Positions 25,421 through 31,178 of a stretch of 32,352 nucleotides of DNA are shown piece by piece. The position numbers were made by a program, and so were the translations under genes. Position 1 is the stretch's first letter. Each line of letters opens with the position of its first letter. Below the pieces are notes generated by a model, which saw nothing but the letters and a program-made list of their open reading frames with translations, was not told the DNA's origin and did no database searches. Source of the DNA: Prochlorococcus sp. AG-409-O23 (GTDB lineage: Bacteria; Cyanobacteriota; Cyanobacteriia; PCC-6307; Cyanobiaceae); assembly GCA_003215355.1 (NCBI GenBank), contig QCKL01000010.1:1-32352 (forward strand). The letters run 5' to 3'.

Positions 25421-26323
25421 TTGCATACAGAAGCTAAGCATGTGAAGTCTGGAGAAACTCTTAGGACCGATGCACCTATTGACCATGCAGGCAAAGGAGA
25501 GAATTTTGCTCCTACTGATTTATTGGCTACAGCTGTAGGGACTTGTTTCCTTACAGTGATGGGAATCACTGCCAAAGAAAAAGGGTGGAAATTAGATGAA
25601 ATAACAGTTGCAATTGATAAGAAGATGACAACTCAGGGTCCTCGCAAGATTAGATCTTTATTACTTCAAATTGATATGCCAACTAATTTAGGAGCTGATC
25701 AATTAAAGGTCCTTCAAAAGGTAACGAAAGACTGTCCTGTTTTGAGAAACTTAAATGACTCAATAAAAATAAAAGTCAAGTGGAATCAATTAAAACAGAA
25801 AAAAAAGACTTCTCTGAATTTTGTCGCTACTAATGTCTTTCGTGAAACTCCTGATGTCACGTTCTTTGATGCAGTAGTCAACGGCTCTAATGGATCTGAT
25901 GTGGTGATTCATCACGGAGCTGCAATTTCTCCTCCTAACGACAAAGAATTTGAGCAGTATTACGTTCATCACCATCAGATTGATCACAACTTAGTTGTAG
26001 AAGGAAGCCGCACTTTTACTCTCCTCAACCCTGCATGGGATGAGCCTCATCACGTGATTTACCTCAATCCAAAAATGGGTGCTCTTCAAATACCTATTGG
26101 GACTTATCACCAATCTGTTTCAGGGACAGAGGGCAGCATCGTATTGAATCAAGCAGTACGAGATAAGTGTTTTGATTCAAAGAGGGAATTTATTCCTGTC
26201 AGTTTGCGAGATAGGGCTGATTTGCGTAATGCAAAAGCAGCTGAGCCTGTTTATTGGATTTGGGATGATGGAAGAATCAGAAGATTGAAAGTACGTCGTG
26301 CTAGCAAAGCTAATATTTTTTGA
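25421..26323 (+). CDS. OsmC-like/cupin fusion protein
   Basis: Residues 1-125 match OsmC/Ohr-type peroxide or sulfur-handling proteins: GETLRTDAPIDHAGKGENFAPTDLLATAVGTCFLTVMGI with the first reactive cysteine (Cys42), then TQGPRKIRSLLLQIDMP, and DCPVLRNL with the second (Cys105). After a lysine-rich linker (about 123-131), residues 135-285 look like a cupin: VHHHQIDHNLVVEGSRTFTL, then GALQIPIGTYHQSVSG and GSIVLNQAVRD. The first usable start is TTG 25421, but the frame upstream (from about 25397) reads ILCRYLGDL, and YLGDL belongs to the conserved OsmC N terminus. The true start is therefore unclear: ATT at 25397 or a lost ATG. A redox role is likely but not proven. Confidence 0.8.
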   Translation: MHTEAKHVKSGETLRTDAPIDHAGKGENFAPTDLLATAVGTCFLTVMGITAKEKGWKLDEITVAIDKKMTTQGPRKIRSLLLQIDMPTNLGADQLKVLQKVTKDCPVLRNLNDSIKIKVKWNQLKQKKKTSLNFVATNVFRETPDVTFFDAVVNGSNGSDVVIHHGAAISPPNDKEFEQYYVHHHQIDHNLVVEGSRTFTLLNPAWDEPHHVIYLNPKMGALQIPIGTYHQSVSGTEGSIVLNQAVRDKCFDSKREFIPVSLRDRADLRNAKAAEPVYWIWDDGRIRRLKVRRASKANIF

Positions 26324-27090: not shown

Positions 27091-27113
27091 ACTAAAACGG
27101 TTATCGTTTTCAT
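27091..27113. promoter_or_regulatory. Fur/Zur-family-like operator
   Basis: AAAACG (27094-27099) and CGTTTT (27105-27110) form a perfect inverted repeat with a 5-bp centre, GTTAT. The reverse strand reads ATGAAAACGATAACCG. This resembles the AT-rich hexamer repeats bound by Fur-family metalloregulators (Fur, Zur). It lies about 41 bp before a small reading frame. The specific metal is not determinable. Confidence 0.4.
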
Positions 27114-27153
27114 TATTTGATAGATTTTCTCTTTACCTGTCATTGTTCCAAGA

Positions 27154-27258
27154 ATGAGTCAGACTTTGAATTACACCCTCTATGACGTTGGCAGTGATAA
27201 AACGCACTTCCTTACCGCCGGCAGTCAAACCAAAACTAAAGGGATGGGATTCGCCTAA
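27154..27258 (+). CDS. Possible 34-aa peptide downstream of Fur/Zur-like box
   Basis: An ATG at 27154 opens MSQTLNYTLYDVGSDKTHFL, and TAA follows at 27256-27258. The sequence has no cysteine, one histidine and no membrane helix. The placement after a metalloregulator-type inverted repeat supports expression, but the size makes it uncertain. It could also be the truncated start of a longer ancestral gene. Confidence 0.35.
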   Translation: MSQTLNYTLYDVGSDKTHFLTAGSQTKTKGMGFA

Positions 27259-27291: not shown

Positions 27292-27326
27292 ATCAATAAA
27301 ACTTGATTAAATCAACAATATTTGAT
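27292..27326. promoter_or_regulatory. Two ArsR-type operators upstream of 58-aa gene
   Basis: Two exact copies of ATCAA-N6-TTGAT occur here: 27292-27307 (spacer TAAAAC) and 27311-27326 (spacer CAATAT), with a 3-bp gap. The same motif pair lies between arsR and gap in this window. It is the recognition sequence described for the cyanobacterial arsenic repressor ArsR in Synechocystis. The pair lies 81 bp before the ATG of the 58-aa gene, so arsenic-responsive repression of that gene is the natural reading. Confidence 0.75.
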
Positions 27327-27407
27327 TAGAGTAGGGAGGTCATACTTCTAGGTCAATGATCTTCGCAAAGAAGGCTTTCATTCAGTTATTAGTTTGAGTC
27401 TGTCGTA

Positions 27408-27584
27408 ATGAATAATAAATTCAAATATCTACAAGATCAAGATGTCCAAGCTCTTATACAAGCAATAGATAAAGCAGTCTTGCAATATTGTGATGAAAAG
27501 ACTATCTCTGGTGAAACAGCTTGGGCTTTAATACAAGGATTAAGTGATGTACGTCTTGAGCAATTTCGAGATTCAATTGATTGA
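27408..27584 (+). CDS. Hypothetical 58-aa protein, probable ArsR target
   Basis: The ATG at 27408 opens 58 residues beginning MNNKFKYLQDQDVQALIQAI and including VLQYCDEKTISGETAWALIQ, with TGA at 27582-27584. It is probably all-helical and acidic and has one cysteine. The family resembles small conserved picocyanobacterial proteins, but no function is known to me. No strong ribosome-binding site is present. The most informative fact is the pair of ArsR-type operators upstream, which suggests a role in the response to arsenic or related thiol-reactive metalloids. Confidence 0.65.
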   Translation: MNNKFKYLQDQDVQALIQAIDKAVLQYCDEKTISGETAWALIQGLSDVRLEQFRDSID

Positions 27585-27828: not shown

Positions 27829-28155
27829 ATGAACATTAAGAAAGGGTTCCATGCCTATAAAAAATACTGGGAAGATCAAGCAAGTTTCATGGATAAATCT
27901 CCATGGAATCTGAAGAAGATCTTAAAACTAACTATCTCAAATGATGTTGATGGAAATTTGGAAGAACTAGAATTTTCCAATCACTCCATTTCAAGAGAAG
28001 AGGGGCAATTAACCTTACGGGTAAATGTTCCTTACAACTACTTTGAACTTGATAGTTTTGAATTAAAAGCTATTGAACTCCTTGGTATTGATAAAAATTG
28101 GTTAATAGATATGAGCTTAGAAGACTCTAGTTGTACCCATCAATTAACAAAGTAG
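27829..28155 (+). CDS. Hypothetical protein, 108 aa
   Basis: A good ribosome site (GGAGTGA, about 27820-27826) lies before the ATG at 27829. The protein begins MNIKKGFHAYKKYWEDQA, is hydrophilic, and ends in SSCTHQLTK. It has no membrane helix and no known domain. Pairs of short beta strands (LKLTISNDVDGN, QLTLRVNVPYNYFEL) suggest a small mixed fold. It is the last plus-strand gene before arsR and may belong to the same stress neighbourhood, but no operator is seen directly in front of it. Confidence 0.7.
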   Translation: MNIKKGFHAYKKYWEDQASFMDKSPWNLKKILKLTISNDVDGNLEELEFSNHSISREEGQLTLRVNVPYNYFELDSFELKAIELLGIDKNWLIDMSLEDSSCTHQLTK

Positions 28156-28376: not shown

Positions 28377-28706
28377 TTAAGAACAAGGCTTTGCTGCATT
28401 CTTACAACTCTTTTTCAGATCAGCTATCCAATCTTCTAATAATTGCAACGCTTTTAGATCCAATTTGTAGTACACCCAACGCCCGCTTTGACGGTCTGTA
28501 ATTAATCCTGAATCTTTTAGAACCTTGAGATGAAATGAAAGGCGTGATTGCGCAAGACCTGTCTTTTCCATCAGATCACAAACACAACACTCTCCTTCTG
28601 ATAAAGATTGAATGACTTCCATACGAAGAGGATCGGCTAAGGCCTTGAGAAGCCCACTTGCTTGACTTGCCGCAAGCACATTTTTTTCAGCAATGACTGC
28701 TCTCAT
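28377..28706 (-). CDS. arsR: ArsR-family transcriptional repressor
   Basis: The 109-residue protein (from ATG 28706; a GTG at 28757 would give 126) is a winged-helix ArsR/SmtB dimer. GLLKALADPLRMEVIQSL is followed by ECCVCDLMEKTGLAQSRLSFHLKVLKDSGLI, with the DNA-recognition helix at AQSRLSFHLKVL, and the wing is RQSGRWVYYKL. The metalloid-binding cysteines are in CCVCDL, the alpha-3N motif type. Two more cysteines near the C terminus (CKNAAKPC) may add ligands. Arsenite or antimonite binding releases the repressor from DNA. It is divergent from gap-arsJ-chrA and has two operators just upstream, so autoregulation is likely. Confidence 0.95.
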   Translation of the reverse strand: MRAVIAEKNVLAASQASGLLKALADPLRMEVIQSLSEGECCVCDLMEKTGLAQSRLSFHLKVLKDSGLITDRQSGRWVYYKLDLKALQLLEDWIADLKKSCKNAAKPCS

Positions 28707-28769: not shown

Positions 28770-28803
28770 ATCAAGCAGGGTTGATACATCAAAATAAATT
28801 GAT
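28770..28803. promoter_or_regulatory. Two ArsR operators between arsR and gap
   Basis: ATCAA-GCAGGG-TTGAT (28770-28785) and ATCAA-AATAAA-TTGAT (28788-28803) are two exact ATCAA-N6-TTGAT sites, 2 bp apart. The arrangement is the direct-repeat operator pair known for cyanobacterial ArsR at the arsBHC promoter. The pair is placed to control the divergent arsR and gap-arsJ-chrA promoters together. Confidence 0.85.
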
Positions 28804-28866: not shown

Positions 28867-29895
28867 ATGCGCATTGGTATTAATGGTTTTGGTCGGATTG
28901 GCCGCTTAGTTTTTCGTGCCTTATGGGGTCGTTCCAATATTGAACTAGTTCATATCAATGACCCAGCAGGAGATGCTCCAACAGCAGCTCATCTACTGGA
29001 ATTTGACTCCGTTCATGGTCGTTGGGACCAGCACATTGATTCCGACTTAAAAGGGATCAAGATTGATGGTCAATTTCTTAGCTACTCGCAAGAGAGTGCT
29101 CCCACTAATGTTCCATGGGAGCAAGCGGGTGTTGACTTTGTTCTGGAATGCAGTGGAAAGATAAAAACACCAGAACTATTAAACCCTTACTTTGATCAGT
29201 GTGGCATTAAAAGAGTTGTTGTTGCTTGTCCCGTGACAGGTGAAGTGGCAGGGACAGAAGCTCTAAATATCGTCTATGGAATCAACCATAATCTTTACGA
29301 CCCTAAGATTCATCGACTAGTCACAGCTGCATCGTGTACAACCAATTGCTTGGCACCAGTTGTCAAAGTTGTCAATGAAAACTTTGGAATCATGCATGGA
29401 GCCATTACCACTCTTCATGACATCACCAATACACAGGTTCCAATTGACTCTTTTAAAAGCGACTTAAGGCGAGCACGCAGCAGTATTCAAAGCCTCATCC
29501 CCACTACAACTGGTTCGGCTAAAGCTATAGGAATGATTTTCCCCGAGCTTCAAGGCAAATTAAACGGACATGCTGTACGTGTTCCACTGTTGAATGCATC
29601 CCTGACTGATGCCGTTTTCGAACTTGAGAGAAAGGTCTCAGTTCAAGATGTTAATGACGCTTTTCAACGTGCAGCGGAAGGAGACTTAAAAGGAATTCTT
29701 GGCTATGAAGAAAGGCCCTTAGTCTCCATTGACTACGTCAATGATTCACGCAGTTCAATTATTGATGCTTTGTCCACAATGGTTATAGATGGGAATCAAT
29801 TAAAAGTTTTTGCCTGGTATGACAATGAATGGGGTTACAGCTGTCGTATGGCAGACCTAACTTCTTATGTCGTGAATCTAGATAGCAAAGGTTAA
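28867..29895 (+). CDS. gap: Glyceraldehyde-3-phosphate dehydrogenase, ArsJ-associated
   Basis: The 342-residue protein has the NAD-binding start [19 protein letters not shown] and the catalytic [10 protein letters not shown] (Cys157), with His184 in [10 protein letters not shown] and the C-terminal [19 protein letters not shown] replaces the usual HSYTGDQ of housekeeping enzymes, marking this as the dedicated arsenic-linked form. With arsenate in place of phosphate it makes unstable 1-arseno-3-phosphoglycerate, which ArsJ exports, giving net arsenate removal. It is 11 bp upstream of arsJ and clearly in the same operon, under the paired ArsR operators. A Calvin-cycle or glycolytic role is less likely because of the neighbours. 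Confidence 0.93.
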
Positions 29896-29906
29896 AAGAT
29901 AACCAA

Positions 29907-31178
29907 ATGAAATTGTCGTCTCTGCAGCAATACGGGATCGTCACAGCCAACTATTGGGCGTTCACTCTTACTGATGGCGCTCTGCGTATGTTGGTGGTCT
30001 TTCATTTCCATCAGCTTGGATATACAGCTTTAGAAATTGCCTTTCTTTTTCTCTTTTATGAGTTCTTTGGCATCATTACCAATTTGTATGGCGGCTGGAT
30101 TGGTGCTCGCTATGGCTTACGACTAACCCTATGGGCAGGAACTCTTCTGCAGATAGGTGCTCTACTGATGTTGGTTCCTGTTGCTGCTAGTTGGCCAAAG
30201 TTGTTAAGCGTTAGTTATGTCATGGTTGCGCAAGCAATCAGTGGCATCGCCAAAGACCTCAACAAAATGAGTGCAAAGAGTGCAATCAAAACAGTTGTTC
30301 CTGAAACGCCGGAAGAAGAACAGAAAGGTAAAAAGCAATTATTTAAATGGGTTGCGGTTCTAACAGGTTCCAAAAATGCTCTCAAGGGTGTGGGATTTTT
30401 TCTGGGTGGAGTTTTGCTGATTAGTTTTGGTTTCAATAAGGCCGTTGAGCTAATGGCATTTGGCCTGGCTCTGTCTTTTGTTTTGACTCTGGTCTTGCCT
30501 GGTGATATGGGGCGTATGAAGGAGAAGCCGATGTTTAAAGATCTATTTTCAAAATCCAAAGGGATCAACGCACTTTCTATGGCACGTTTTTTTCTCTTTG
30601 GAGCTAGAGATGTGTGGTTTGTCGTTGCATTACCTGTTTTTCTAGAGACATCTCTTAACTGGAACTTTTCAGAGATTGGAGCTTTTCTAGGACTATGGGT
30701 GATTGGTTACGGTTTTGTGCAGGCGTTAGCGCCCACTTTAAGGAATGCCTGGGGCAAAAAATCCAGTCCAGGAGTTTCCACAGTTAAGTTTTGGAGTGCT
30801 GTTCTTACTGCAATTCCTGGACTCATCGCTATTGCGTTGTGGAGGCAGAGTGATCCAGGCATTGCTATTACCGCTGGCTTAATTGCTTTTGGAGTGGTTT
30901 TTGCAATGAACTCATCTATCCATTCCTACATGGTGTTGGCTTATACCGATGCAGACAGCGTGAGCCTGAATGTTGGTTTCTATTACATGGCGAATGCAGC
31001 CGGCAGGCTTCTAGGAACATTACTTTCAGGAGCTTTATTTATGCTTGGAGAGAATGCAACTATAGGGATGCAACTTTGTTTATGGTGCTCCAGTTTACTC
31101 GTGCTCTTCTCATGGCTAAGCAGCTTACGTCTACCAGCATTAATTAACTCTGTATCGCTTAAAGGAAGTTCGCCATAA
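29907..31178 (+). CDS. arsJ: Organoarsenical efflux MFS transporter ArsJ
   Basis: The 423-residue protein has about twelve hydrophobic segments and starts LQQYGIVTANYWAFTLTDGA, which is characteristic of ArsJ. LFLFYEFFGIITNLYGGWIGARYG gives the MFS loop 2-3 motif, and a charged central loop (KTVVPETPEEEQKGKK) follows. ArsJ exports 1-arseno-3-phosphoglycerate made by the partner GAPDH. The product breaks down outside the cell to arsenate and 3-phosphoglycerate. It starts with ATG 11 bp after gap and is followed by chrA after 57 bp, so one transcript for all three is plausible. Confidence 0.92.
   Translation: MKLSSLQQYGIVTANYWAFTLTDGALRMLVVFHFHQLGYTALEIAFLFLFYEFFGIITNLYGGWIGARYGLRLTLWAGTLLQIGALLMLVPVAASWPKLLSVSYVMVAQAISGIAKDLNKMSAKSAIKTVVPETPEEEQKGKKQLFKWVAVLTGSKNALKGVGFFLGGVLLISFGFNKAVELMAFGLALSFVLTLVLPGDMGRMKEKPMFKDLFSKSKGINALSMARFFLFGARDVWFVVALPVFLETSLNWNFSEIGAFLGLWVIGYGFVQALAPTLRNAWGKKSSPGVSTVKFWSAVLTAIPGLIAIALWRQSDPGIAITAGLIAFGVVFAMNSSIHSYMVLAYTDADSVSLNVGFYYMANAAGRLLGTLLSGALFMLGENATIGMQLCLWCSSLLVLFSWLSSLRLPALINSVSLKGSSP

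Follow-up and report, generated by a model that had tools for sequence, protein, structure and literature searches.

A tandem ArsR-type operator pair from a pstS promoter probably controls a small conserved gene in Prochlorococcus

The window analysed here, a stretch of 32,352 nucleotides from Prochlorococcus sp. AG-409-O23, raises the question of whether a small gene of no recognized family, preceded by two sites of the form ATCAA-N6-TTGAT, is controlled by the arsenic repressor ArsR, and where these sites come from. The core motif published for ArsR, ATCAAN6TTGAT, has this form (PMC9137774). By pattern search, we identified four exact matches in the window, starting at positions 27292, 27311, 28770 and 28788, compared to 0.15 matches expected in the shuffled window; none of 100 shuffles reached four. 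Two of the matches, operator 1 (27292..27307, + strand, ATCAATAAAACTTGAT) and operator 2 (27311..27326, + strand, ATCAACAATATTTGAT), form a distal pair that ends 81 bp upstream of the start codon (ATG) of an intact open reading frame (27408..27584, + strand) encoding a conserved small helical protein of 58 amino acids. The other two exact core matches form a pair (28770..28803, not assigned to a strand) between arsR and gap. A sequence-only reading of this DNA had pointed to the 58-aa frame, to the two exact sites at this distance from it, and to four exact copies in two pairs as far beyond chance, all of which is borne out. It had also described the two pairs as equally spaced, which is inexact: the period is 19 bp in the distal pair vs. 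18 bp in the arsR-gap pair, and the inner gap between TTGAT and ATCAA is 3 bp vs. 2 bp. Across the loci compared, the period was 18 bp in all arsR-gap pairs and 19 bp in all pstS pairs.

The same reading had called for a scan of the whole genome, which in this case is an assembly of 1.38 Mb, about 69% complete, that we searched by pattern. Single exact sites numbered 13, compared to 3 for the reversed control pattern, and tandem pairs (linker of 0-8 bp) were found only at the distal position and between arsR and gap. The majority of the nine exact sites beyond the four in the window are located within coding genes, and only one of the nine, C13:20607, which precedes another pstS, looks promoter-like. 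We accordingly rejected a lone exact site as a criterion, given these nine further, mainly intragenic occurrences, and rejected sites with one mismatch (n = 200) as too common; a pair is a strong criterion and a single site a weak one.

The gene for the candidate regulator lies close by. The window arsR (28377..28706, − strand) encodes a 109-aa ArsR/SmtB repressor with a winged-helix ArsR domain (PF01022, 1.1e-17; NF033788, 3.1e-27), in which the sequence ECCVCDL at residues 39-45 occupies the position of the As(III)-binding motif and, being of the ELCVCDL type, is predicted to provide the arsenite-binding cysteines of helix alpha3. A search of viral contigs with this ArsR yielded no relative. 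On the opposite strand are gap (28867..29895, + strand; NF033735), encoding the ArsJ-associated glyceraldehyde-3-phosphate dehydrogenase, and arsJ (29907..31178, + strand; NF033734), encoding the organoarsenical efflux MFS transporter; a chromate-transporter-like gene is next after gap-arsJ on the contig. The genes denoted below as pstS, ptrA, phoB, chrA, porin and CobW-like were named from their translations and established family knowledge, without a profile search; we take ptrA to be a CRP-type regulator and pstS to be the periplasmic phosphate-binding protein.

Base-level comparison with relatives indicates where the distal pair originated. The segment 27286..27382 (+ strand) matches the pstS promoter and codons 1-9 of pstS (ATGATCTTCGCAAAGAAGGCTTTCATT, MIFAKKAFI) in L077-L081; to L077-L079, whose pstS promoters are intact, the homology amounts to 88-90% identity and stops at 27382, and in L078 and L079, the match begins already at 27165 and takes in the upstream neighbour. 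From 27383 on, the match switches, at approximately 94.5% identity, to L069-L072, covering the final bases of ptrA, the 58-aa gene and a 108-aa gene; in these loci, pstS is followed by three sites, ptrA, the 58-aa gene and the 108-aa gene. The fusion junction, evident from this comparison, is thus at 27382..27383 (no strand), with the pstS side on the left and the ptrA-tail/58-aa segment on the right. Across it runs a fused mini-ORF of 13 codons (27356..27397, + strand), in which the truncated pstS start, MIFAKKAFI, continues into ptrA-tail sequence read as QLLV; the stop codon of this fused leader (MIFAKKAFIQLLV) lies 10 bp upstream of the 58-aa ATG. The comparison indicates that the distal pair is part of a pstS promoter and that the body of pstS was lost by fusion to the ptrA-58aa segment. 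The 19-bp period of the distal pair follows from this pstS origin. The 108-aa gene (27829..28155, + strand), which in the relatives is the next gene after the 58-aa gene within the ptrA-58aa-108aa segment, shows pS greater than pN and is therefore a real gene.

The neighbour upstream of the pair bears a scar of its own. Comparison with L077 identifies a chimeric mini-ORF of 34 aa (27154..27258, + strand) as a deletion scar, in which codons 1-4 of a CobW-like gene (MSQT) are in frame with ~30 codons from the C-terminal end of a metallophosphatase-like gene (MSQTLNYTLYDVGSDKTHFLTAGSQTKTKGMGFA, then a stop). As in the pstS scar, the promoter and start codon are retained, together with the end of the last gene. 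Upstream of the CobW scar, at 27096-27125, there is a palindrome-like sequence, AAAACGGTTATCGTTTTCATTATTTGATAG, reminiscent of a Fur/Zur box, and in L077 a similar sequence, GGTTATCGTTCTCATGTTTTGATA, precedes the intact CobW-like gene. A 300-aa ORF at 25421-26323, with an N-terminal OsmC domain and about 170 further residues that had no Pfam match, is close to the rearrangement in several relatives.

We propose an event of recombination or deletion that took out pstS beyond codon nine and fused its promoter with the final codons of ptrA, which would place the 58-aa gene, and perhaps also the 108-aa gene, directly under the pstS promoter. Judged by eye, a possible −35 element, TTGATT (27303-27308), consists of the right half of operator 1 plus one T, and operator 2 lies within the putative spacer before a possible −10 element, TAGAGT (27327-27332); a scan with the generic sigma-70 consensus called no promoter at the distal pair. 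Because the operators cover the putative −35 element and the −35/−10 spacer, ArsR, supplied by the neighbouring gene, would block transcription until arsenite binds its CVC motif. Release would then allow expression of the 58-aa gene along with gap-arsJ, which serves arsenate export, and with the other pstS copies. ArsR binding and repression, arsenite release, induction by arsenic, co-expression with gap-arsJ and co-transcription of the 108-aa gene are all parts of this model that we infer from sequence.

The 58-aa protein itself belongs to a small family, with homologues in 24 of 400 genomes. Residues C28, S34 and W39 are invariant in 12 homologues, and the family core is C-x5-SGE-x-AW-x-LIQGLSD; the alignment of these 12 sequences was dropped as a query for the locus search, being too diverse. 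Neither Pfam, NCBIfam and PHROGs nor the solved structures in the PDB contained a match above threshold. The predicted structure, at modest confidence (mean pLDDT 70.5), is a two-helix hairpin, and our guess for the role of the protein is a small helical accessory of phosphate/arsenate handling. No Shine-Dalgarno sequence is evident before the ATG, and the fusion may have changed the gene's own ribosome site. Weak homologues are present in the cyanophages S-CRM01, P-TIM68 and Sf-FS3 (HQ615693, KM359505 and PV340856; loci L126, L125 and L127), where they are annotated as hypothetical, with 31-40% identity; taken together, the cyanophage matches to the 58-aa protein (29-40% identity, E of 1e-3 or worse) are leads only.

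Homologues of the 58-aa gene occur under ArsR boxes in three arrangements, as would be expected of a member of the ArsR regulon whose upstream operator is kept in relatives. The first is the order seen in L069-L072. In the second (L082-L084, L088, L097 and L105), pstS and the homologue are neighbours; an exact site stands 4-28 bp from the homologue, which is transcribed in the direction of pstS, and pstS has a site of its own. The third is that of the window group, with the captured pstS promoter. Near the distant homologues in other genera, no ATCAAN6TTGAT site was found.

These arrangements also bear on whether the pair and the 58-aa gene might be leftovers of a collapsed pstS-ptrA region, in which case the 58-aa product would have no arsenic role, even if the promoter may still bind ArsR. 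The similar CobW/metallophosphatase scar 30 bp upstream is compatible with such decay, as is the observation that at close range pN of the 58-aa gene is about equal to pS, a ratio that comes from too few changes to reveal selection. However, four single-cell genomes carry both operators and the 58-aa frame intact (a fifth has a mismatch in one operator, which lies about 11 bp into the contig), the family is kept down to 36-47% identity, and its members are found beside ArsR boxes also in lineages without the fusion. We therefore consider decay unlikely.

For control by ArsR, the distribution of the pairs is informative. At least one tandem pair occurs in 131 of 400 genomes of the same family, whereas the reversed control pair was found in none of the 400. 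The pair is present in 129 of the 281 genomes with an arsR hit, compared to 2 of the 119 without one, from tables cross-read by hand and uncorrected for kinship; within genus g17, the respective numbers, likewise uncorrected for kinship, are 37 of 50 and 1 of 18. In G099, one of the two arsR-less genomes with a pair, the contig ends before arsR. In relatives, pairs are located at arsR-gap and before pstS, and single or triple sites at ptrA, phoB, the porin gene and pstC (L085 and L086). The site in these last two loci, from two genus-g17 genomes, lies 59 bp before the pstC/A genes (L085:4929-4944 and L086:4544-4559, on the reverse complement of the stored locus), so that the whole pst operon may belong to the ArsR regulon there.

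The association with arsR also weighs against reading the palindromes as sites of the CRP/FNR-type PtrA, or of another P-stress regulator, instead of ArsR. The half sites TTGAT/ATCAA do resemble the FNR box, the N6 palindrome has a CRP-like geometry, and sites are found before ptrA, phoB and pstS as well. But the pairs follow arsR, and in lineages such as L106 they occur at arsR-gap, far from pstS and ptrA. Genus g17 has pairs, yet its matches to the CRP family are weak (E about 1e-14 to 1e-16, compared to 1e-30 or better for ptrA homologues elsewhere), and PtrA is therefore not needed to explain the pairs. Furthermore, the inner gap of 2 or 3 bp differs from the 4 bp of an FNR box, TTGAT-N4-ATCAA, and the motif coincides with the published ArsR core (PMC9137774). 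In our judgement, this explanation is decidedly improbable. Finally, many genomes of the clade are single-cell assemblies from amplified DNA, but that the junction is a chimera of whole-genome amplification or assembly has a vanishingly small probability, because the same junction is present in independent single cells, namely Prochlorococcus AG-363-O16, AG-363-O06, AG-409-G20 and AG-409-B13 (L073-L076; 99.8-99.9% identity over the 1.6 kb around it in L073-L075, and from 27282 on in L076), which excludes an amplification chimera.

Because three arrangements place the 58-aa family under ArsR boxes and the pairs follow arsR across the 400 genomes, we conclude that the 58-aa gene is likely an ArsR target driven by a captured pstS promoter, and we regard the promoter-capture explanation as a whole as quite probable on these comparisons. 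The sequence-only reading, in which the distal pair predicted an arsenic-responsive 58-aa gene, was thus probably right that this gene answers to ArsR, given the match to the core motif (PMC9137774), the co-occurrence of pairs with arsR and the three arrangements. It did not capture that the pair is a pstS promoter left by a gene fusion, nor that the gene is one member of a wider putative regulon, which includes arsR, gap-arsJ, pstS, ptrA and phoB.

Control of pstS by ArsR is already known from Agrobacterium, and the principle is not new. In Agrobacterium tumefaciens 5A, arsenite induces the ArsR1-repressed genes pstS1 and phoB1 up to 14-fold, and, as here, arsR lies beside pst/pho genes, with two binding places between pstS and phoB; unlike here, the ArsR1 regulon of this alphaproteobacterium is not described by ATCAAN6TTGAT pairs and includes no 58-aa gene (PMC7965956). 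The Prochlorococcus case, in contrast, is read from DNA comparisons, and one pstS promoter is re-used for a small gene. In Synechocystis PCC 6803, which has the ArsR-arsBHC system, a cyanobacterial ArsR likewise controls a small regulon of five genes that includes an extra gene of unclear role, sll0914, and there is read-through into genes downstream; however, that regulon lacks pstS, ptrA and gap-arsJ, pst is not among the five genes, and the phosphate transport genes are repressed by arsenic (PMC4010505). The content of the regulon therefore varies between organisms. The window shares with the arsR-gap-arsJ arsenate export module (NF033735/NF033734), exemplified by the Vibrio cholerae var operon, the clustering of ArsR, an arsenate-dedicated GAPDH and ArsJ, but here arsR and gap-arsJ diverge, and the cluster also connects to pstS, ptrA, phoB, chrA and the 58-aa gene (PMC9601151). 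Cyanobacterial ars clusters with PstS, Gap3 and MFS genes, in which arsR, pstS, gap and an MFS gene are together as in the window, have been described, and the authors read this co-location as arsenic co-regulation; the parts of that account available to us contain no operator analysis of ATCAA sites and do not mention a 58-aa gene (PMC4284471). A literature search, with most subscription journals outside its coverage, did not find an operator-level description of the Prochlorococcus regulon, the 58-aa family or the promoter capture.

Picocyanobacteria of the open ocean face scarce phosphate, with which arsenate competes. If the proposed regulon is real, it would link arsenate export (gap-arsJ), phosphate uptake (pstS), P-regulators (ptrA and phoB) and the small 58-aa protein, and this compact ArsR regulon would amount to a direct wiring of arsenic sensing to phosphate scavenging in a very abundant phototroph. 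The window would also represent a clear case of promoter capture, in which a gene stays in its regulon after the operon has broken up. More tentatively, and as a possibility that we put at somewhat short of even, the 58-aa family may be a dedicated part of ArsR-controlled arsenate/phosphate discrimination in Prochlorococcus that has remained subject to ArsR through independent rearrangements, including the capture of the pstS promoter.
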